From IMG/VR virus record IMGVR_UViG_3300042881_004166, positions 1-56,939 of that record: a stretch of 56,939 nucleotides of DNA; one strand, given 5' to 3'. The DNA is from a virus. The notes below the pieces were generated by a model, which did no database searches, was not told the DNA's origin, and saw only the letters and a program-made list of their open reading frames with translations. A program made the translations under genes and the position numbers. Positions 4,568 to 26,805 of the stretch are shown piece by piece. Position 1 is the stretch's first letter; each line of letters starts with the position of its first letter.

Positions 4568-5101
4568 ATGGAAGAGTGCATAGTAACAAATATTAATACT
4601 TTCGATAGCTTAGACTTAGAAGATAATCTAAAAGTTATGAAGAAAATCCAAAAAATGGTAATAAGCAAATACATGTATCGTTATGAAAATAAAGATCCTT
4701 TTTATATAAAAGCTTTAGTATCTAGAGAAGATGATTCTAGCGTGGTATTTCCAGAACAGACTGGCAATAAAATTATACCCGTATGTGAAGGTGGATCTAT
4801 ACTTTTTCATGAAAAGATTAAATTTGAAGTTGTAAAGGGAAAATTTTTTGAATATACGTTTTTAGTAGATCCAGGACAGAAATTTGGAGAAGGAAGCAAG
4901 TCCTATAAAGTTTTATGCAAAACGGAAGAATTTTATGAAATTGAAGTTATGGCTAATAGTGAAGAGGAAGCTATAGAAACTGCTAATAAGCAAGAGTTAT
5001 GGTATTGGAATCATCATCAGCCTGGTAAAGATGACAAAGTAAGACCTATAACTTCATTTGTTGTTTGGGACAATTTTAAGGTAACTGAAATTAATGAATA
5101 A
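4568..5101 (+). CDS. Phage protein with DpnD/PcfM-like C-terminal segment
   Basis: This gene encodes 177 residues, preceded by AGAAGGAAATAT. The N-terminal part (about 1-110) is not recognised. Around residues 117-137, FYEIEVMANSEEEAIETANK resembles the beta-alpha unit of DpnD/PcfM-like small domains (xVxVEAxSEEEAIExA), whose function is unknown. No membrane segment or cysteine cluster is present. It lies downstream of the structured leader and could be its regulated gene. Its last 8 nt overlap a 24-residue membrane peptide gene. Confidence 0.6.
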   Translation: MEECIVTNINTFDSLDLEDNLKVMKKIQKMVISKYMYRYENKDPFYIKALVSREDDSSVVFPEQTGNKIIPVCEGGSILFHEKIKFEVVKGKFFEYTFLVDPGQKFGEGSKSYKVLCKTEEFYEIEVMANSEEEAIETANKQELWYWNHHQPGKDDKVRPITSFVVWDNFKVTEINE

Positions 5102-5302: not shown

Positions 5303-6034
5303 ATGTACGAAGTTGAAGTTTATAAATTAAAAGGCGGGGGATCTGGAATAATTTCTCCTCTTCCAGTACAGAGAGATTGGATGGATAATCTTCCATTTGA
5401 TGCAGTATACAGATGTATGCCTATGACATTAGCTAACCAGATGGGATATGGCATATCCTTTCCAGAAGAGATCTCATTTACCTGGGATGGGACATATGAC
5501 TCAGAAGAAAATCATGGAATTACAGTACATTCTGGAGATACTTGGATACATAAGCATAGAGGTTGGGCCACATTAGCTATATCTACAGGACTTAGATTTA
5601 AAACAGATAAGAATACTAGCATGTTGGCCTATCCTATTCCTAATAAGTTCTATGAAGGATTTCAGGTATATACAACGCTTATTTCCACCTCCTTTTTCAA
5701 AGGTGCATGGGAAATTACTTTGAGGTTAACCGAACCTAATAAGAAAATAACTATACCTGCATATACACAAATAGCAGCATTTATGCCCTTTTCCGCCGCC
5801 GCACTTAATAATAGCAAAATTACCGTTAAATATAATGAAAGAATGTTAGAGGACTTTCCATCTGAAGATCAACATGCATATGTAGATAGTCAAACAGAAC
5901 TTGGTAAAGGAACTGGTCTTTATCGAAAAGGAATAGATCTAAGTGGCAAAAAATTAGGAGAACATGAAATATCCAAATTCACTCTCTTTTTCGACGATTC
6001 ACTAGACCGAGAATATAGGAGCTATAATGTATGA
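5303..6034 (+). CDS. DUF6065-like phage protein
   Basis: This gene encodes 243 residues. The hallmarks are PLPVQRDWMDNLPFDAVYRCMPMTLANQMGYGISFP near the N-terminus, a central W-T-L-x-I-S-TGLRFKT stretch, and GAWEITLRLTEPNKKITIPAYTQIAAFMPFS near residue 165. This order (substrate-like head, central YxxL/PxN segment, then an I-x-x-G/Y-T-P/Q-I-x-x-F/P-F motif) matches the DUF6065 family. Its function is not known, but members often lie near glycan or oxygenase genes. Three further members, one very divergent, lie at 20625, 21314 and 22014. The next gene overlaps by 8 nt. Confidence 0.7.
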   Translation: MYEVEVYKLKGGGSGIISPLPVQRDWMDNLPFDAVYRCMPMTLANQMGYGISFPEEISFTWDGTYDSEENHGITVHSGDTWIHKHRGWATLAISTGLRFKTDKNTSMLAYPIPNKFYEGFQVYTTLISTSFFKGAWEITLRLTEPNKKITIPAYTQIAAFMPFSAAALNNSKITVKYNERMLEDFPSEDQHAYVDSQTELGKGTGLYRKGIDLSGKKLGEHEISKFTLFFDDSLDREYRSYNV

Positions 6035-7049: not shown

Positions 7050-7085
7050 AAATATAAACCCAGACAGAGGCGGGTCCGTCTGGGT
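7050..7085 (-). terminator. Terminator after the P450 operon
   Basis: ACCCAGAC (7058-7065) and GTCTGGGT (7078-7085) form an 8-bp stem. On the minus strand the stem is followed by TTATATTTTAAT. It lies 70 nt beyond the P450 stop and should end that transcript. A second hairpin, TGCAAAC/GTTTGCA, lies between them at 7111-7129. Confidence 0.55.
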
Positions 7086-7155
7086 CTAATGCATTCTAAA
7101 AGAACGCAACTGCAAACCATAAGTTTGCATCTATGCAATAGTAAAATATTTTAAT

Positions 7156-8598
7156 TTATAAGTCAATAGGTTTAATTGTAGCTTTTATTTTCTTTAAAGG
7201 TCTATATGAAACATGCGATTGCCCACCTGGATTTTTTTTCTTTGTAGTTAAATCAAAATTTGCAAATATGTTTAATAGAATTACTTTCATTTCCAGCATA
7301 GCAAACATATCTCCTATGCATTTTCTAGATCCCATTCCAAATGGAAAGTATGATCCTCTTGGAAGGTTAGATTCAAAATCTTTAGTCCACCTTTCTGGCA
7401 TAAATTTTTCTGGGTTTTCGTATATTTTTGGATTATTGTGGATTGGGTAAGAGCTTAAAACAATATTGGCTCCTTGTGGAAAAAAATGACCATCAATAAT
7501 AGAATCTTTCTTGCAAAATCTTGGCTGTATCCAAAGAGGAGGAAAAATTCGTAATGTTTCTTTAATTACAGATGAACAAATTTCTGCATTAGATACTAGT
7601 TCTATAAAATTATCATTATTTCTTTTTGAAAGGATTTGCTGTGATTCTTTTTTCATAAGATCAAGATATTTAGGATTGTCGTTTATGTTGCATATTGCAA
7701 AAGCTAAAGTGTTAGCAGTAGTTTCAAAGCCAGCTAGCAAAAGTGTAAGTATTTCATTGTTTATGTCGGATAAAGATAAATTGTTTTCTGGATCTTGATA
7801 TGATTTTATAAAAACATTTAAAAGGTCATCTGAATCTACAGGGTTTGCAATTCTTTCATCAATAGTTGTTTTAACAAAATTAAAAAGCTCTATTGAGGAT
7901 TCTCTAAATTGTTTAAATATTGGTAGGTTGGAATTATCAAATCTGTGCAGTAATGGGGACACGGTTCTTTCGGCATTTGCTACACAAATATCCATGTGTT
8001 TTTTTATAAAAGCGGTTTTTTCTTTAAAATCAATACCAAATAAAGATTGACAAACTATTTCTAGAGTTAAGTTGACCATTTCGGTGTGCACTTCTATATA
8101 TTTATTATTCTTCCACTCAGACATTTTGTTTTCAGATTTAATACACATGATATCAAAATAATCTTTTTGTATTTTTTTATAACTTAAGCTTGGCTGTGCA
8201 ATACCCCTTCTTTCAGTATGAGTAGGCTCTTCCAAGGTAAGCATTCCTTCGCCACCAAATTTTCTAATTCTGTTCCAAGCTCTACCTTTTGAAAAATTAT
8301 TTTTTTGAGCCACGGATATTTGGTATGCAGTTTCTGGAGAAAATGCTGCAATAAAAAGTTCGTTATTTACAAAAAAAGAAAAAACTTCTCCATGTTTTTT
8401 TGACATTTTTAATAAATTTTTTGCCCTGTTTCCTTGTTTTATATGGTAATTAGATTTAAGTTTTATTACTTTTGGTATTTTTTTTAATAAATTTCTTTTT
8501 TCTAAAGTTTTTAAATTCATTGGTTTTAAATAGAACATGTGCTTGGGAAAATAAAAAAATGGAGGAATATTTAACTGATTTTTTTTAGACATCTTCAT
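7156..8598 (-). CDS. Cytochrome P450 (heme-thiolate monooxygenase)
   Basis: This gene encodes 480 residues, full length for a soluble P450. The signatures are complete: I-helix AGFETT (289-294) for O2 activation, K-helix ExxR (E347, R350), PERW (401-404), and the heme loop FPFGMGSRKCIG with the thiolate Cys427. No N-terminal membrane anchor is seen, only a basic, aromatic stretch. P450s oxidise small molecules such as lipids, steroids or terpenes, with electrons from ferredoxin or flavodoxin partners; none is encoded nearby, so host partners would be needed. The start overlaps the upstream gene by 14 nt (an alternative ATG lies 6 nt later). Phage P450 genes are rare. Confidence 0.93.
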   Translation of the reverse strand: MKMSKKNQLNIPPFFYFPKHMFYLKPMNLKTLEKRNLLKKIPKVIKLKSNYHIKQGNRAKNLLKMSKKHGEVFSFFVNNELFIAAFSPETAYQISVAQKNNFSKGRAWNRIRKFGGEGMLTLEEPTHTERRGIAQPSLSYKKIQKDYFDIMCIKSENKMSEWKNNKYIEVHTEMVNLTLEIVCQSLFGIDFKEKTAFIKKHMDICVANAERTVSPLLHRFDNSNLPIFKQFRESSIELFNFVKTTIDERIANPVDSDDLLNVFIKSYQDPENNLSLSDINNEILTLLLAGFETTANTLAFAICNINDNPKYLDLMKKESQQILSKRNNDNFIELVSNAEICSSVIKETLRIFPPLWIQPRFCKKDSIIDGHFFPQGANIVLSSYPIHNNPKIYENPEKFMPERWTKDFESNLPRGSYFPFGMGSRKCIGDMFAMLEMKVILLNIFANFDLTTKKKNPGGQSHVSYRPLKKIKATIKPIDL

Positions 8599-9680: not shown

Positions 9681-9710
9681 ATAATACCATTATAAACAAG
9701 AATAAGTCAA
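9681..9710 (-). promoter_or_regulatory. Leftward promoter for the lysin-P450 operon
   Basis: On the minus strand TTGACT (9710-9705) and TATTAT (9686-9681, preceded by TGG) are 18 bp apart. A palindrome-like CTAGTCAACTAG at 9712-9723 lies just upstream and resembles the first half of the repeats at 4056 and 5165. The remaining divergent gap to 9907 is AT-rich; TGATACACT near 9851-9859 is a plausible rightward -10 for the RNR gene. Confidence 0.5.
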
Positions 9711-9907: not shown

Positions 9908-11842
9908 ATGTCAAAAATTATTGAAAACCCATATGAAAATTTTATTGCATTGTCTCGTTATGCAAGATGGATCTCAGAAGAAAACCGTCGTGAGACATGG
10001 GCAGAAACAGTAGATAGATATTTTGACTACATGATAAAGTATCTTAAAGACAACAATGGCTACGTCCCAGAACCAAATTTATTAAAAGAATTAAAAGAAT
10101 CTGTTTACAATCGTGATGTAATGCCATCAATGAGATCTGTAATGACAGCAGGACCTGCTTTAGATAGAGACCATGTTGCAGGATATAATTGTTCGTTTAT
10201 ACCAGTAGATTCTCCACGATCATTTGACGAAACAATGTATATACTTATGTGTGGAACGGGAGTAGGGTTTTCCGTTGAGTATAAATACATCAATAAGCTT
10301 CCAGCGATTCCAGAATCTTTTGAAAAGTCTACAACAGTAATTATTGTTGAAGATTCTAAGTCTGGTTGGGCAAAAGCGTTTCGTGAATTGCTTGCACTTC
10401 TTTGGTCTGGTCAAGTTCCTTCAATTGATGTAAGCAAACTTCGTCCCGCTGGCGCAAGACTTAAGACTATGGGTGGTAGGTCATCAGGACCACAGCCATT
10501 AGTTAACTTGTTTGATTTTACAATTGCAAAATTTAAATCTGCAGCAGGTAGATCATTTAAACCAATTGAGGCACATGACATTATGTGTAAGATTGGAGAA
10601 ATTGTAGTAGTTGGTGGAGTTAGAAGGTCTGCATTAATTTCTCTTTCTAATATTAATGATATTGAAATGGCACAAGCAAAAACTGGTAATTGGTGGGAGC
10701 ATAATGGACAACGTGCTCTTTCAAATAACTCTGTTGCGTATTCTCGTAAACCAGAGATGGAACAATTTATTGCAGAATGGAAATCCTTATATGATTCAAA
10801 ATCAGGAGAACGAGGTATATACAATGTGGCCGCAGCTCAAGCCCAGGCAGCCAAGTATGGAAGAAGAGATCCAGATATACACTACGGAACTAACCCTTGT
10901 TCAGAAATTATTTTACGTCCTTATCAGTTTTGTAATCTTTCAGAAGTCGTACTACGTGAAAAAGATACAAAAAAAGATATTGAGCGTAAAGTAGAACTAG
11001 CAACAATTCTTGGAACATGGCAGTCTACTCTTACTAATTTTAAGTACCTTCGTAAAATTTGGAAAGATAACACAGAAGAGGAAAGATTACTAGGGGTATC
11101 TCTGACTGGACAATTTGGTCATCAGTTTATGTCTGGAAAAGAAGACTTGGTGTCTTTAGAAGCATTTTTAATGACTCTTAGAGAAAAAGCTAGAGAGACA
11201 AATAAAAAAGAGGCAGGAAATCTTGGAATTCCAGAGTCTGCTGCTATTACATGTGTAAAGCCATCAGGAACAGTATCTCAACTAGTTGGAGTATCTTCAG
11301 GAATGCATGCTTGGCATTCTCCGTATTACATTAGAACAGTTCGTGGCTCAAAAGGAGACCCAATATCTACATTTTTAAAAGAAGTTGGAATTCCAGTAGA
11401 GGATGACGTTATGAAGCCAAACGACACCTATGTATTTTCGTTTCCAATAAAAGCTCCAGATGGGGCTGTGGTTAGAAAAGATTTGACCGCAATTGAACAC
11501 TTAAATATTTGGTTAGTTTACCAACGTGCATGGTGTGAGCATAAGCCATCTATCACAGTTTCAGTAAAAGAAGATGAATGGATGGAAGTAGGAGCTTGGG
11601 TATATAAAAACTTTGATGAAGTCTCTGGAATATCATTCTTGCCTATGTCCGATCACTCATACAAGCAGGCTCCATACCAAGAAGTTTCTAAATTAGAATA
11701 TGAAGAACTAGTTTCAAGAATGCCTAAAGAAATTAGATGGGCGGACTTATATTTTTACGAAACAGAAGATGGAACATCTACAAACGCCACGCTTGCGTGC
11801 AGCTCAGATGGAAATTGTGAGCTTGTAGACATTTCTTCTTAA
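9908..11842 (+). CDS. nrdJ: Adenosylcobalamin-dependent ribonucleotide reductase (class II)
   Basis: This gene encodes 644 residues. NCSFIPV carries the first active-site cysteine (C95), TNPCSEI the radical Cys and Glu (C331, E333), FCNLSE the partner cysteine (C342), and the C-terminus CSSDGNC (C631, C637) is the redox pair that re-reduces the active site. The motif set and single-chain length match the monomeric B12-dependent ribonucleoside-triphosphate reductases of actinophages; no glycyl-radical site and no NrdB gene are present. It makes dNTPs for phage replication and needs host adenosylcobalamin. AAGAAAAAGG lies 9 nt upstream. No inteins or frameshifts are seen. Confidence 0.93.
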   Translation: MSKIIENPYENFIALSRYARWISEENRRETWAETVDRYFDYMIKYLKDNNGYVPEPNLLKELKESVYNRDVMPSMRSVMTAGPALDRDHVAGYNCSFIPVDSPRSFDETMYILMCGTGVGFSVEYKYINKLPAIPESFEKSTTVIIVEDSKSGWAKAFRELLALLWSGQVPSIDVSKLRPAGARLKTMGGRSSGPQPLVNLFDFTIAKFKSAAGRSFKPIEAHDIMCKIGEIVVVGGVRRSALISLSNINDIEMAQAKTGNWWEHNGQRALSNNSVAYSRKPEMEQFIAEWKSLYDSKSGERGIYNVAAAQAQAAKYGRRDPDIHYGTNPCSEIILRPYQFCNLSEVVLREKDTKKDIERKVELATILGTWQSTLTNFKYLRKIWKDNTEEERLLGVSLTGQFGHQFMSGKEDLVSLEAFLMTLREKARETNKKEAGNLGIPESAAITCVKPSGTVSQLVGVSSGMHAWHSPYYIRTVRGSKGDPISTFLKEVGIPVEDDVMKPNDTYVFSFPIKAPDGAVVRKDLTAIEHLNIWLVYQRAWCEHKPSITVSVKEDEWMEVGAWVYKNFDEVSGISFLPMSDHSYKQAPYQEVSKLEYEELVSRMPKEIRWADLYFYETEDGTSTNATLACSSDGNCELVDISS

Positions 11843-20064: not shown

Positions 20065-20625
20065 ATGATAACAAAACTAGAAAACATTAGAAACGAATTC
20101 TTATATAAACAATATAAAGATATGGTTGACTCCATGTATGAAGAGATAGGCTCTGCAAAATGGGGAGTCAGAACAAAAATTAAAACAAAAAAAATTTCTT
20201 TGATTGATTATAGAACTTTTAACTTTTTTGGAATGTACCATAAAGAGATATATAAATTATACCTAGAGATATCTAAAGTTGTCAAAGAACAATGTCAAAT
20301 AAATAGCATAAATTTTGAAAAAAATTATTATTATTTATTAGGAAATATATTAGATCAATCTGTTAGCGAGTTTCTGGTTACAACCCCAGACAGAACAAGA
20401 TTAAATTTTTCTGGGGTATATGTAATTAAAAGTAATGGAAATAAAATGATAATTAATGAAAAAGAAGTAGATACCTTAGAGGGTACCTTGATTATGTTTA
20501 ATAAAGGAGATATAATAGATTTTTGTGATACAATAAATAAAGACAGCATGTTTTTGTATTTTTCTGTAGCTACACTACAAAATTTACACAGACAGTACTA
20601 TCAGAAATGGATACCGTTAGCTTAA
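20065..20625 (+). CDS. Catalytically degenerate 2OG-oxygenase-like protein
   Basis: This gene encodes 186 residues. It shares layout and end with the proteins at 22767 and 23414: a helical IYKLYLEISKVVKEQCQINSI part, an FSGVYVIKS strand where they have HGFYCVKAEPS, and a C-terminal QKWIPLA like HWIPLL. The HDH motif before that strand is replaced by TTPDRTRLN, and the distal HPH/NPHG by DIIDFCD, so iron ligands are absent. It may be a structural or regulatory partner of the active copies. Its stop overlaps the next ATG (TAATG). Confidence 0.55.
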   Translation: MITKLENIRNEFLYKQYKDMVDSMYEEIGSAKWGVRTKIKTKKISLIDYRTFNFFGMYHKEIYKLYLEISKVVKEQCQINSINFEKNYYYLLGNILDQSVSEFLVTTPDRTRLNFSGVYVIKSNGNKMIINEKEVDTLEGTLIMFNKGDIIDFCDTINKDSMFLYFSVATLQNLHRQYYQKWIPLA

Positions 20626-21338
20626 TGAAAATTGAATTTCTTCCAAAATATAGAGGTCTTGAGAAGATATTTCCACAACCTCAATCAGTATCCTCATTGC
20701 TTCCAGAATGGTGGAAAAAACAAAAAAGCTATTTAAATGACGATACATCCGTTCACAGTGGTAACATGCTCTTAACAGTAAAAAAATGTCAAGCAGTTTT
20801 TGACTCTATGACTTTTGGATACTATTTGCTTTGTCCCATGGATCTAAGCATAGATGCCACTGGAGACACATTAACAATTGATATTCCAAACGATACAAGA
20901 GAGTTTCAAAAATTTTTATTAGCCCATCATTTATCTGAACAAATTCAGGAATACCCTATACCTAATAATTTTCACAAACAGGTTATAAGAATACATCCAA
21001 TGTGGGTTGTTAGAACAGAGACTGGGTACAGTTGCTTGTTTGTAAACCCAATGCACGGATCAAAGAGTCCTCTACAAGCCATTCCAGGGCTAATAGATAC
21101 CGATAAGTATGTTTCTGATGGCTACTTGTCCTTTTTTGTAGAAAAAGGATTTAAGGGAGTAATTGAACAAGGAACTCCAATTGTTCAAGTTATTCCTTTT
21201 AAAAGAGATGACTGGGAAAGCTCACTAAATAAGGAAAAGGATTCTGATACACAAATAAGAGCCCAACAACTTTCAGTCAGATCAGTTTTCAGAAATGGTT
21301 ATAGGAAAAAAATGTGGTCGAAAAAAATATTTCGATAA
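20625..21338 (+). CDS. DUF6065-like phage protein
   Basis: This gene encodes 237 residues from the ATG at 20625, which overlaps the previous stop; a longer frame starts at 20607. Features in order: LPEWWKKQKSY, LTVKKCQAVFDSMTFGYYLLCPMD, IRIHPMWVVRTETGYSCLFVNP and GVIEQGTPIVQVIPFKRDDWES. The same order occurs in the 22014 product and, more loosely, in the one at 5303. The family has no known function; the beta-rich layout and conserved aromatic and Pro residues suggest a binding fold. It is coupled to neighbours on both sides. Confidence 0.7.
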   Translation: MKIEFLPKYRGLEKIFPQPQSVSSLLPEWWKKQKSYLNDDTSVHSGNMLLTVKKCQAVFDSMTFGYYLLCPMDLSIDATGDTLTIDIPNDTREFQKFLLAHHLSEQIQEYPIPNNFHKQVIRIHPMWVVRTETGYSCLFVNPMHGSKSPLQAIPGLIDTDKYVSDGYLSFFVEKGFKGVIEQGTPIVQVIPFKRDDWESSLNKEKDSDTQIRAQQLSVRSVFRNGYRKKMWSKKIFR

Positions 21339-22024
21339 ATAAAAGTTTTCCTATACTAAGGGCACCATTTGAATCTAACTCTTGGCTAGAGATGTCTTCA
21401 ATGAGCTTTAAGGATATATTAAAAGAGTGCAATGTATTTTACGATTGGGCAACCTGGGATCAAGTTTTAAAAAAATATAAAGACAATGTATTAAAACCAA
21501 TAAACCTATATGTAGATAATTTTGGAATTAAGCCAGAAGTAGAAGTAGTTTCTAAAAATGAAATTAATTTAATATACAAGAACTACTCAGACATTTTATG
21601 GCAAGGACACCCCACAAGTAATAAACAAATATCAAGTATATTCTATGCATCCGAAAAAGCTATGGTCAGGCAGTTTTATCCATCGTTTTTGTCTATTGAA
21701 AGCTTTAAGGAATTGTTAGACCAAAATGATTTTAAGCAGGCCTCTGATAGAGTTTTTAAAATATATGTTCCCTGGATTATTGATTGTTATGCAGAATACA
21801 GCATAAAAAATATTCAAAAAGACCCAGTAATCTGTATTATAGAGAGCCGTGGAGTCTTTGAAAAAACCAATAATAATGATATAATAAAGGAACCAACTTT
21901 TATAGATTTTTGTTTTTTATCTAATGAAAAACAAATAAGGTTAATAGAGAGAAATACTCCACTATTTTATATTTCTATAAAAGCTACAGAAAAGGTTATT
22001 CAAAAAATTATTAATGAGCAATAA
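21314..22024 (+). CDS. Divergent protein, possibly DUF6065-related
   Basis: This gene encodes 236 residues from a GTG at 21314 (25-nt overlap; an ATG lies at 21389-21391). KIYVPWIIDCYAEYSIKNIQKDPV and IRLIERNTPLFYISIK take the places of the MWVVxTxxGYSxLxxNP and IEQGTPIxQVxPFKR segments of the neighbours, at similar spacing. The N-terminal LPEW motif is missing. I read it as a highly diverged duplicate; an unrelated origin is possible. Confidence 0.5.
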   Translation: MVEKNISINKSFPILRAPFESNSWLEMSSMSFKDILKECNVFYDWATWDQVLKKYKDNVLKPINLYVDNFGIKPEVEVVSKNEINLIYKNYSDILWQGHPTSNKQISSIFYASEKAMVRQFYPSFLSIESFKELLDQNDFKQASDRVFKIYVPWIIDCYAEYSIKNIQKDPVICIIESRGVFEKTNNNDIIKEPTFIDFCFLSNEKQIRLIERNTPLFYISIKATEKVIQKIINEQ

Positions 22025-22766
22025 CAATTTAATAATCAAATTTACCCCAGCAGAGGTTAATCTTAATTTTGAGCCAAAAGACTATGCTCCACCATCTCCT
22101 GCAATAAATAAATTGCCAGAATGGTATAGAAAGCTTTCTAGGTTTCAAACATCTAATGATTTGTCAAAGTTGTTTCCAGTAAATGATAGAGGCACTGATG
22201 GTAGTGCTGGTTCTACTAAATTGTGCATGCCATTCCTTGATTCCCTATCGGCAGGTTACATGTTTTGCTTAGAAGATGATGTCGAAGTAACTTTAGATAA
22301 AAAAGGGTTTCCTTCTATTAAAAATACAAACGATTTTATGTTGGTAGATAAAAGAAATATGGTCGAGGTTGCAGTTCCACACGAACACCACCCTATGCAT
22401 TATGGATGGAAAATACCTTGGCATTGCGAAACTCCCCCAGGATATTCTATTTTAATTACACACCCACACAATAGGCATGACCTACCCTTTACCACTCTTT
22501 CTGGAATTATAGACTCTGACGATTGGAACGCACCAGTATTTACAGCATTTTTTTTAAAAAGAAACTTTATGGGAACTATTAAAAAAGGAACTCCCATATT
22601 CCAAGTTTTTCCATTTAAAAGAGAAAACTGGGAAATGTCATTAGATTATTCTAAAGAAGATATTGTGCAAAAAAAGATTAAAGAAGAAAAAAGAAGAATA
22701 TCAATATATTCATACTATAAAGACTTTGTATGGAAAAGAAAAAACTACACAAGGAAAGAGGAATAA
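22014..22766 (+). CDS. DUF6065-like phage protein
   Basis: This gene encodes 250 residues, with an 11-nt overlap with the previous gene. It contains APPSPAINKLPEWYRKLSRF, TKLCMPFLDSLSAGYMFCLEDD, YGWKIPWHCETPPGYSILITHPHN and GTIKKGTPIFQVFPFKRENWEMS. It is the clearest paralogue of the 20625 product. The conserved W-H/V...T-x-x-GYSxL...HP and GTPIxQVxPFKR parts look like opposite sides of one binding pocket. Function unknown. Confidence 0.7.
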   Translation: MSNNNLIIKFTPAEVNLNFEPKDYAPPSPAINKLPEWYRKLSRFQTSNDLSKLFPVNDRGTDGSAGSTKLCMPFLDSLSAGYMFCLEDDVEVTLDKKGFPSIKNTNDFMLVDKRNMVEVAVPHEHHPMHYGWKIPWHCETPPGYSILITHPHNRHDLPFTTLSGIIDSDDWNAPVFTAFFLKRNFMGTIKKGTPIFQVFPFKRENWEMSLDYSKEDIVQKKIKEEKRRISIYSYYKDFVWKRKNYTRKEE

Positions 22767-24079: not shown

Positions 24080-24897
24080 AAGACATTGGCATAGTTTTAT
24101 ATTCTTTTCAAAATAAAGATTTAGTCGATTTGGTTGAAAAAAATATAGAAAGTTCCAGCGGTTTAAACAATTTATTTTTTTATATAATTGATCAAAACAA
24201 TATTGATAGAAAGAAAAACTTTAAATCTATATATCCAAATGTAAAAATTTATTATAAATATGTAAAATGGGATAGTATTAAAAGCCCAATTTTGCATAAA
24301 CAAGAAGGGTATAGGCTTTTTAAAAAAGAATACTTTTTGTTAATTGGAGACGGAGTAAGTCTAAATAAAAATTGGGACGAGGATCTTATTGAAAAAATAG
24401 AATTTCTTAGCTTAGAAAGAGAATGTGTCCTGTCTGGAAATCATGAGATAGTCCCATATTTAGAAAATCCGTTTATTATTTCATATAAAAGAGAGCCTAT
24501 TTTTCAAGAAACTTTAACAAAATATATAGACAAAGATTTTATTTTTACAAAATCTAAATCTTTTTTGTATAACAAATTGCCAGGTTATTTAAAGTACTAT
24601 GGAGAAAAAGAGCACCTATCAATATATTTTAATTTAATAAAAATTTTTGCCCTTCCAACAAATTTTTTTAAAAATGAAACAGTTGAGCTAGATAAAATTG
24701 AATATTTGCCTTTTTCTATATATCACGGGTATAATGAGTTTTTGGGTAAATGGGGAGCAAGCATTAAGAGTTTGTTTGGATTTGAGGTATGCAGCCTTCC
24801 GTTTTCTGGAAATGATGTTTCGTACGACCCTTCTGGCTCTTTAACAGACAAGCTCGGCGGAGAAAGATATCTAGACCCTAAAGGAGTAATTAATTAA
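24076..24897 (+). CDS. Glycosyltransferase-like protein (GlcNAc-transferase type)
   Basis: This gene encodes 273 residues. The start (IGIVLYSFQNKDLVDLVEKNIESSS) is like the first strand of GT-A folds. YRLFKKEYFLLIGDGVSLNKNWDEDLIEKI corresponds to the metal and nucleotide-sugar site of the family of polypeptide GlcNAc-transferases (YxLxiDaHxxFxxnWDxxLi), with GDG for DAH. The C-terminal LPFSIYHGYNEFLGKWGASIKSLFGF may be the acceptor side. In eukaryotes members glycosylate hydroxyproline, which is notable next to two prolyl-hydroxylase-like genes. The assignment is by motif only. Confidence 0.55.
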   Translation: MKDIGIVLYSFQNKDLVDLVEKNIESSSGLNNLFFYIIDQNNIDRKKNFKSIYPNVKIYYKYVKWDSIKSPILHKQEGYRLFKKEYFLLIGDGVSLNKNWDEDLIEKIEFLSLERECVLSGNHEIVPYLENPFIISYKREPIFQETLTKYIDKDFIFTKSKSFLYNKLPGYLKYYGEKEHLSIYFNLIKIFALPTNFFKNETVELDKIEYLPFSIYHGYNEFLGKWGASIKSLFGFEVCSLPFSGNDVSYDPSGSLTDKLGGERYLDPKGVIN

Positions 24898-25607
24898 TGA
24901 AAGGAAAACTTATAGTTGGGGGATTTAATATAGGAAATTTTAAAGATACCCCTCAAAGAACAATAGAAGCCATATATTCCTCAGACGTTATTGTTGCGGA
25001 GCACGCAGAATTTTTTGATTACTTTTTAGATATTAAAAACAAAAAAACAAACGCAGAGATTATTAATTATCTACCAGAGTTAAATAATAAAAAAGATATA
25101 ATTAAAAAAATAGTTAATTATATTTTTGAAGGTAAAAACGTTTTGCTTATAGTGCAAGAAGGAATGCCATTAATTCATGATCCAGGATTCGAAATAGTAA
25201 AAGATGTAGTCGAGTCAGACCTAAAGATAACAGTTATTCCTGGACCAACAGCTCCTATTGCGGCACTGTGTGTATCTGGGTTTGCATCAGACAAATTTAT
25301 ATTTAATTCAGATATCCCAGATGATGCTGACAAAGCGCTAGAAATGTTTAACAAACTAAAAAATGAAAGCAGATCGGTAATATTTTTTGATAAAATAATA
25401 AATATTAAAAGAAATTTATTGCTGTTATCGGAGTCAGTGGGAGGACAAAGGCGAGTCTGTATCTGTATAAATTTAACAAAAGAAGATGAAAGAATAATTA
25501 CTGTACCAATTAATTATATGATAGAATGGGTTAACTCTTCGGGTTTTGAAGAAGTGAAATTAAGAGATTCAAAAATTACGTTAGTTGTAGAAGGGGTAAT
25601 GAATTGA
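24897..25607 (+). CDS. RsmI-like tetrapyrrole-methylase-family protein
   Basis: This gene encodes 236 residues. GGFNIGNFKDTPQRTIEAIYSSDVIVAEH (8-36) parallels the ATPIGNLxDxTLRAxExLxxADxIxAED start of RsmI, and EGMPLIHDPGFEIVKDV with VIPGPTAPIAALCVSGFASDKFIF (88-136) is the SAM-binding core. RsmI 2'-O-methylates C1402 of 16S rRNA. A phage copy could act on rRNA or on another target; the usual RsmI C-terminal domain is reduced. Overlaps are TAATG with the gene before and TTGA with the gene after. Confidence 0.75.
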   Translation: MKGKLIVGGFNIGNFKDTPQRTIEAIYSSDVIVAEHAEFFDYFLDIKNKKTNAEIINYLPELNNKKDIIKKIVNYIFEGKNVLLIVQEGMPLIHDPGFEIVKDVVESDLKITVIPGPTAPIAALCVSGFASDKFIFNSDIPDDADKALEMFNKLKNESRSVIFFDKIINIKRNLLLLSESVGGQRRVCICINLTKEDERIITVPINYMIEWVNSSGFEEVKLRDSKITLVVEGVMN

Positions 25608-26152
25608 GCAGCATGATAAAGATTGTAGAAGACTTTATATCAGAACAAGATGCGTTTGCTCTAATAGAAGAAATGCAATCTCCGTCTAAAATAAATCCAT
25701 ACCCAGAATACTATAAAGACAGAAATGGTGGTACTGCTTTTCCATATAACAACAGGGTGATGGACATATTAAAAAAATATTCAGTAAGAGCAAATCACAT
25801 TCAAAAAGAATTTTTTAATTTAAAAGACAAAGTAATTGTTACCAAGGCTTTTGGATCGTGGTGGCAGCCAGGACAAAGTGGAAGTCCTCACATAGATGCA
25901 ATTGAAAAAGAGCCTTTTATAGAATATAGCACCGTCATTTATTTAAATGATGACTACGAAGGCGGAGAGATCTATTTTCCAAAACAAAATTTTGAACATA
26001 GGCCTAAGTCCTTGTCAGCTATTTTTTTTCCAGGAAACAAATATGAATACTTACATGGAGTAAAAGAAATAACTAAAGGAAATAGATTTACCGCACTTTA
26101 TATGCAATCTACAAAAGTAGATTTCGCCGACCCAGACTTTGAGGTATTGTAA
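25604..26152 (+). CDS. 2OG-Fe(II) oxygenase, prolyl-4-hydroxylase type
   Basis: This gene encodes 182 residues. SPHIDA (H96, D98) and HGVKEITKGNRFTALY (H151, R161) give the complete iron and 2OG site; YSTVIYLNDDYEGGEIYF between them is the typical strand of prolyl-4-hydroxylase-like phage enzymes. Start: TTG at 25604, with AGGGG 8 nt upstream and overlapping the previous stop; an ATG 9 nt later is the alternative. The reaction would be hydroxylation of a protein side chain or small molecule using O2 and 2-oxoglutarate. Related to the next gene. Confidence 0.8.
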   Translation: MSSMIKIVEDFISEQDAFALIEEMQSPSKINPYPEYYKDRNGGTAFPYNNRVMDILKKYSVRANHIQKEFFNLKDKVIVTKAFGSWWQPGQSGSPHIDAIEKEPFIEYSTVIYLNDDYEGGEIYFPKQNFEHRPKSLSAIFFPGNKYEYLHGVKEITKGNRFTALYMQSTKVDFADPDFEVL

Positions 26153-26805
26153 TGAATAGAGAAATTCTCTCACTTGGAATGGCTTACTATAAAAATATAA
26201 TACCAGATCCAGCATCTTTAATTAAAAAAATTGAAGACTTAGAAATAAAAAGAAGCGAGACTAATGGGTATGAGTCCTTGTATGTTAGAGGGTGGCAGCC
26301 ATGGGACTACGACCATGGTGGAAAAGAAAAAACTGTTTTTTGCTGGCAAAAGTTTATACCAAAATCTGAAGATATTCCAAAAGATGATTTATTTTATAAC
26401 GAGCAAAAAGAAATATCAGATGTATTATTTGGAGCACTAGAAAAAGGATTACAAGATTATTTTTCTATTTATCCATACTCTCAAAAAAATATTAAATCAA
26501 GAGAAAAAACAATGCATCTTTTAAAGTATAAAGAGTCAGGATTCTTGCCAGCACACTCAGACCACGGAATTAGCAGTAGAGTTTTATCGGCATTACTTTA
26601 TTTAAACGACGATTACGAAGGAGGAAATATTAAATTTGAACACGCAGGGGTAACCTTAAAGCCAGAAGCGGGAAGCTTATTGTTTTTTCCTTCTAATTAT
26701 ATATATGTACACGAGGTCTCGGCAGTAACTTCTGGAATTAGATACGCTCTTCCAAACTGGTACCATAATAGGTCTAAGGCCTACTATTCGGATGGCACAG
26801 AATGA
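26152..26805 (+). CDS. 2OG-Fe(II) oxygenase, prolyl-4-hydroxylase type
   Basis: This gene encodes 217 residues. PAHSDH (H135, D137), LSALLYLNDDYEGGNIKF and VHEVSAVTSGIRYAL (H187, R197) form a complete Fe(II)/2OG site; LLFFPS is the strand before the distal His. LNDDYEGG is shared with the previous gene. It carries a longer N-terminal part with WQPWDYDHGG. Two complete, adjacent enzymes suggest different substrates or successive sites. TAATG overlap at the start, ATGA overlap at the end. Confidence 0.8.
   Translation: MNREILSLGMAYYKNIIPDPASLIKKIEDLEIKRSETNGYESLYVRGWQPWDYDHGGKEKTVFCWQKFIPKSEDIPKDDLFYNEQKEISDVLFGALEKGLQDYFSIYPYSQKNIKSREKTMHLLKYKESGFLPAHSDHGISSRVLSALLYLNDDYEGGNIKFEHAGVTLKPEAGSLLFFPSNYIYVHEVSAVTSGIRYALPNWYHNRSKAYYSDGTE

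Follow-up and report, generated by a model that had tools for sequence, protein, structure and literature searches.

The window examined here (the whole 56,939-bp linear IMG/VR virus record) carries an intact, conserved cytochrome P450 gene. The gene belongs to a P450 family known so far from phages alone, in which a sulfotransferase accompanies the P450 in nearly every case, and this pairing suggests that some small molecule in the bacterial host undergoes chemical modification by these viruses.

The P450 gene and its transcription unit

The gene is a single open reading frame running from ATG to stop (Table 1); that it lies on the minus strand was not mentioned in the preliminary description of this DNA. 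The encoded protein has all the sequence hallmarks of the P450 superfamily (that is, FxxGxxxCxG, ExxR, PERF/W and an I-helix AGxET): the I-helix motif reads A289-G-F-E-T-T294, the ExxR motif E347-T-L-R350, the PERW motif P401-E-R403-W404 and the heme loop F420-G-M-G-S-R-K-C427-I-G. The P450 family of Pfam (PF00067) aligns with residues 55–455 at 238.4 bits (E = 1.9e-70) and solved P450 structures match residues 63–449 (E = 5.6e-38); none of the PHROG families matches. The 480-aa frame and the Pfam score confirm what had been noted from the sequence at the outset, that is, a complete P450 with all of its motifs in a tailed phage.

Table 1. Features in and around the P450 cargo slot of the window
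Feature	Position	Strand	Basis
Cytochrome P450, 480 aa, heme ligand Cys427	7156–8598 (read 8598 to 7156)	minus	PF00067, conservation, dN/dS
Conserved small protein F9, 71 aa	8585–8800	minus	phrog_12271, E = 4.8e-11
Conserved small protein F2, 72 aa	8869–9087	minus	CP..D and CxxC motifs, alignment of 13 homologues
Lysin, lysozyme-like SLT_3 with N-terminal hydrophobic segment	9097–9654	minus	PF18896, 57.4 bits; conserved neighbour
Promoter-like site, TTGACT-18-TATTAT, extended -10	9681–9710	minus	consensus scan, 10/12 matches
Intrinsic-terminator-like hairpin, 14 pairs	7055–7088	minus	consensus scan
B12-type (class II) ribonucleotide reductase (RNR), anchor gene flanking the slot	9908–11842	plus	phrog_367, 617 bits
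Sulfotransferase-like protein, 250 aa, convergent with the P450	6027–6779	plus	PRSGSTW and RDPRDIIPS motifs
DUF6065 protein	5303–6034	plus	PF19541, 75.6 bits; 8-nt overlap with the sulfotransferase gene

In the viral contig scan, twelve further IMG/VR contigs encode the protein at 84–100% identity in an unchanged gene order, and the frame is open in all of them bar L012, a 6.2-kb contig with single-nucleotide indels in the gene, and L013, in which the gene is truncated by the contig end. Colinearity with a longer relative (G001; 110,973 bp) extends over practically the entire window, through and beyond the P450 region. Two features might point to an assembly chimera, or to host DNA in a viral bin, namely the GC content of the P450 stretch (0.30, below the window average) and the far greater divergence of the P450 than of its flanks; however, the junctions are identical in many independent contigs, the 111-kb relative is colinear and the gene order is kept in divergent relatives, which leaves this explanation a vanishingly small probability and, for a chimeric assembly, rules it out through the colinear contigs. 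The preliminary description had named chimerism at this place and disruption of the gene in relatives as findings that would overturn its claim, and neither was found apart from the two exceptions above.

Purifying selection acts on the P450: dN/dS is 0.045–0.11 in comparisons between alleles with appreciable synonymous divergence, and 0.24 in pairs between the L008 group and L011, a value that rests on very few changes. Between close phages dS reaches 0.48–0.69 in the P450, as against 0.03–0.06 in the lysin, 0.06–0.10 in the RNR and 0.02–0.16 in the overlapping small gene of the same phages. As the raised divergence is limited to the P450 gene itself and the flanks remain low, it suggests that recombination exchanges diverged P450 alleles between phages.

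The P450 and the lysin form one apparent transcription unit, as had been proposed. The lysin is the first gene of this unit and lies on the same strand, the P450 start shares 14 nt with the preceding gene F9, a strong terminator-like hairpin follows about 70 nt past the P450 stop codon, and the best promoter-like site on the minus strand is the one listed in Table 1, just upstream of the lysin, in a region where such sites are no commoner than chance. Late expression of the P450, which had also been put forward, is a possibility that the lysin neighbour suggests. Divergent relatives have a similar plan, with the RNR followed on the opposite strand by the lysin, F2, a gene of 325–362 aa, F9 (about 70 aa) and the P450; F9 stands before or after the 325–362-aa gene, depending on the phage, and is near the P450 in most relatives. 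F2 is a backbone marker of the phage group, with relatives in at least 551 viral contigs. Among 51 F2 loci with enough flank, picked by similarity to the F2 of the window and not by P450, 41 lack a P450 and have other genes in the slot, and the P450 is therefore accessory cargo. Next to the slot, window positions 4568–5101 encode a 177-aa protein of no known family, for which dN/dS is about 0.3–1.05 between close relatives, possibly reflecting diversifying selection.

Family, origin and host affiliation

Members of the P450 family were found in at least 38 IMG/VR contigs (32–100% identity; searches with alignment-derived patterns gave 36 and then 38), which is the outcome of the search of related viral genomes that had been proposed as a check. 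Those members whose sequences were read out have kept open frames, the acid–alcohol pair and the heme Cys are conserved in 13 divergent viral P450s, and even at 32% identity no catalytic residue has been lost in the clade. A P450 of any kind is encoded in only three of the 50,697 named phage records (two Adler records and Pseudomonas phage Y1), in agreement with the earlier remark that such genes are very rare in phages; the Adler protein is 25% identical to that of the window. The record of phage Y1 (OQ572403) is unannotated; its P450-like protein is 23% identical to that of the window and apparently unrelated to the family described here.

Cell-encoded P450s are also distant. A scan of 85,000 cellular species, sensitive to two degenerate motifs only, returned P450s with 25–27% identity over their full length and one 169-residue fragment with 40% identity to the window protein. 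When 893 genomes of three phyla were searched with profiles, four Actinomycetota genomes proved to have clearly closer P450s. The closest full-length cell-encoded protein is 34.7% identical to that of the window, and the identity of these four P450s to the viral member L036 reaches 41%. By the usual naming rule, P450s that share more than 40% identity are placed in one CYP family, and within this limited cellular sample no cell-encoded P450 stands that close to the window protein. Recent transfer from a host was considered and rejected, given that about 35% was the highest identity to the window protein of any cellular copy in the motif-limited scan and the 893-genome profile searches.

A maximum-likelihood tree of 67 rows groups all 23 viral rows on a single branch (100/98; 200/200 bootstraps) that is joined (100/100) to the four Actinomycetota P450s (L122–L125, from G074, G355, G034 and G226), and the P450s of Adler and Y1 are placed elsewhere, outside the viral clade. 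The four sister genes lie in apparently ordinary chromosomal contexts. They differ from the phage P450 in being high-GC chromosomal genes at the far end of a long branch, and no sulfotransferase was noticed adjoining them by inspection (rather than by a family scan); an apparent sulfotransferase gene beside the nearest of them, L122, proved to be a spurious high-GC frame. The donor phylogeny that the preliminary description had called for is hereby answered at the level of phylum. The simplest reading of the tree is that the P450 was acquired once, long ago, from an actinobacterium and then diversified inside phages; a donor nearer to the family may lie outside the limited sample of cellular genomes. 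On the whole, the preliminary description was right about the complete gene, its rarity and the lysin unit, but had missed the phage-only clade and the link to sulfotransferases.

Sequence comparison relates the phages, as well as the P450 gene, to actinobacterial lineages. A gene for WhiB, the usual actinophage marker (PMC10202952, PMC6802176), is present in four of nine related long records (G900, G902, G905 and the colinear G001). A link of the window to the Stanwilliamsviridae is possible, judging from individual genes (66% identity of the RNR to its counterpart in Streptomyces Samistivirus phages and about 58% identity of the portal to that of other Streptomyces phages) and from a similar gene order. 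Samistivirus phages (for example, Streptomyces phage Paradiddles) share with the window the order endolysin (minus), RNR (plus), portal, protease and capsid; unlike the window, they were found to have no P450 and carry other genes at that place. Elsewhere in the window, positions 24897–25607 encode a tetrapyrrole (corrin/porphyrin) methylase domain (PF00590, 77 bits), which the phage has in addition to its B12-type RNR. Genes for 2OG-Fe(II) oxygenases recur (window 26152–26805, L039:8046–8657 and L044:9752–10414), and DUF6065 (PF19541) occurs three times in the window, above the cut-off at the copy in Table 1 and just below it at 20607–21338 and 22014–22766.

The earlier statement that no redox partner lies near the P450 holds for the ferredoxin families tested: no Fer4_15 ferredoxin was found in the window or nine related virus records, no Fer2 ferredoxin in four related records, and none when the window and G001 were scanned for cysteine motifs. 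Ferredoxin-like matches in antisense low-complexity frames were discarded. In line with this absence, PMC9405906 cites work in which none of the known redox partners of P450s had been found in viral genomes. The absence might be taken to suggest a protein that is expressed but has no monooxygenase chemistry (that is, a binding protein or decoy), yet the selection on the gene and the retention of every catalytic residue throughout the clade make such a role very unlikely.

Sulfotransferases beside the P450

In 22 of the 38 contigs, the 325–362-aa gene just upstream of the P450 in the same operon encodes a sulfotransferase. Sulfotransfer_2 matches it above the curated cut-off in three of the members scanned and below it in others, and the family shares the motifs H-x-x-K-x-S-G and R-[ND]-P-[VI]-D-R-x-I-S; a PDB profile search gave only a marginal match, to heparan-sulfate 6-O-sulfotransferase (E = 0.03). 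This gene is kept with the P450 across four divergent P450 subclades and overlaps it in several. Close homologues were found in the slot 28 times, beside a P450 in 23 cases and cut by contig ends in two, and the remaining three, all of one lineage, have no P450; the next long downstream gene in that lineage resembles, by eye, a 2OG-Fe(II) oxygenase. In the F2 anchor sample all ten loci with a P450 have a sulfotransferase, as opposed to none of the 41 loci without a P450 that has a full-length one (short N-terminal matches in three of these were left out of the count), and as the loci are related we attach no significance test to this difference. The association of P450 and sulfotransferase rests on few independent lineages.

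The lineage of the window lacks the upstream gene and has a different sulfotransferase-like gene, convergent with the P450 and downstream of it (Table 1). Its product matches Sulfotransfer_1 with 20.6 bits (E = 3.3e-4), just below the cut-off of 22 bits, its homologue in G001 exceeds the Pfam cut-off with 23.9 bits, and the 5'-PSB (PRSGSTW) and 3'-PB (RDPRD...S) motifs of PAPS-dependent sulfotransferases are present. A PDB profile search with this protein gave noise only, and an AlphaFold model from a 4-row alignment has a pLDDT of 35. The gene exists as two strongly diverged alleles (about 72% amino-acid identity) in phages whose flanking genes are about 97% identical, and the dS of the other allele to that of the window is 0.89. 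Matched inheritance of these alleles with those of the P450 was tested and is absent: L005, for example, combines the P450 nearest that of the window with the other sulfotransferase allele. As the two sets of alleles reassort freely, tight coupling is unsupported in the window lineage.

This reassortment is among the observations that would be expected if the P450 were stand-alone cargo that detoxifies a xenobiotic or an anti-phage metabolite made by the host or a neighbour, with the sulfotransferases being unrelated occupants of the slot. Slot cargo does differ between phages; the P450 occurs without an upstream sulfotransferase in the window clade, in the L056 type and in L114 (a 9-kb contig with no recognised sulfotransferase at all), and chemical anti-phage defence exists in Actinobacteria. 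Retention of the upstream sulfotransferase in the four subclades, with overlapping genes in several, argues against this explanation, and freshwater streamlined Actinobacteria are not known as antibiotic producers; on balance we consider detoxification somewhat unlikely.

Similarly, the P450 could help to modify host-surface or virion glycans (for example, for superinfection exclusion or a change of receptor) together with phage glycosyltransferases, sulfotransferases and methyltransferases. The P450 of L056, L057 and L059 is situated among glycosyltransferases, a nucleotidyltransferase and a sugar epimerase, a glycosyltransferase adjoins the RNR in many relatives, and the upstream sulfotransferase has a weak match to phrog_3347 ('galactose-3-O-sulfotransferase'). 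Nevertheless, P450s rarely act on sugars, and Pfam revealed no glycosyltransferase among the scanned window genes around the slot, so that we regard a role in glycan modification as improbable. L056, L057 and L059 are phages of another type, and among the viral P450s theirs diverges most (32%).

Further genes were observed in related phages. An APS-kinase-like protein is encoded in two of nine records (L157 in G900:C1 and L158 in G902:C1), from phages that have both P450 and sulfotransferase; APS kinase produces the sulfate donor. The protein has a C-terminal nucleotidyltransferase-like part and its gene adjoins one of the catalase family (PF00199). An acyl-ACP-desaturase-like gene (PF03405, about 196–199 bits) lies near the P450 slot in L044 (10540–11478), G902 and G906.

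Proposed function and known systems

We give an even chance to the reading that the phage P450 is a working, host-powered monooxygenase of actinobacterial origin that diversified in phages and whose hydroxylation often precedes a sulfation. An ancestor of these actinobacterial phages may have taken the gene from an actinobacterium long ago, after which it would have diversified as cargo in the variable slot beside the lysis cassette. The P450 would share a transcript with the lysin, take up heme from the host and receive electrons from a host ferredoxin and its reductase, and would insert one oxygen atom into an unactivated C–H bond of a small hydrophobic host molecule, most likely a lipid, isoprenoid or quinone. 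The sulfotransferase of the adjoining upstream gene would presumably then sulfate the new hydroxyl in most relatives, a step that in the window lineage may fall to the convergent one. As the hydroxyl would then be the site of sulfation, the module would run in the order 'hydroxylate, then sulfate', like CYP128A1 and Stf3, and we infer that such a module is the most economical account of the pairing. The fuller proposition, that aquatic actinobacterial phages carry an 'oxidise, then sulfate' pathway of their own (that is, a phage-only P450 family and a PAPS-dependent sulfotransferase, in some with an APS kinase) yielding a sulfated host lipid, quinone or envelope product, is one that we put forward tentatively, as possible rather than probable.

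If the two-step reading is true, a host lipid, quinone or envelope compound is made sulfated during infection. The question of why a phage would need a P450 now becomes testable, as both the partner enzyme and the host group (actinobacterial) are defined, and a new P450 family is supplied for enzymology. Phage P450s were already known, for the most part as isolated acquisitions from a host, Adler being an example; the open-access literature searched contained no report of a selected, diversified, phage-resident family that repeatedly has a sulfotransferase as its partner.

The closest precedent in setting is CYP102L1, the P450 of Mycobacterium phage Adler (Lamb et al. 2019, cited in PMC9405906 and PMC11814380), which is likewise a P450 of an actinobacterial tailed phage with no redox partner encoded. 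In sequence it is distant, on a separate branch of the tree and, at the identity given above, not close enough for the window protein to be placed in CYP102. It also differs in origin: PMC11814380 describes it as acquired from the M. abscessus host, whereas for the family described here, with its 38 or more phage members, the genomes searched yielded no close copy in a host. The P450s of giant viruses (Mimiviridae and Pandoraviridae; PMC9405906) are similar in being virus-resident without an identifiable recent host donor, a likeness by description and not by sequence, and, unlike the phage family, they belong to eukaryotic viruses. With regard to the partner enzyme, the nearest parallel is in M. 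tuberculosis, in which CYP128A1 hydroxylates menaquinone-9 and Stf3 sulfates it (PMC7404182). A CYP128-like Mycobacterium P450 beside a sulfotransferase aligns with the viral P450s along part of the length only, at 22–28% identity, which falls short of family-level homology, and the adjoining sulfotransferase aligns poorly with the viral ones. The resemblance is rather one of arrangement, in that the CYP128A1/Stf3 operon, like most of the viral relatives (22 of the 38 contigs), has a P450 and a sulfotransferase side by side in an actinobacterial setting, with the window having its own, different sulfotransferase downstream in convergent orientation.
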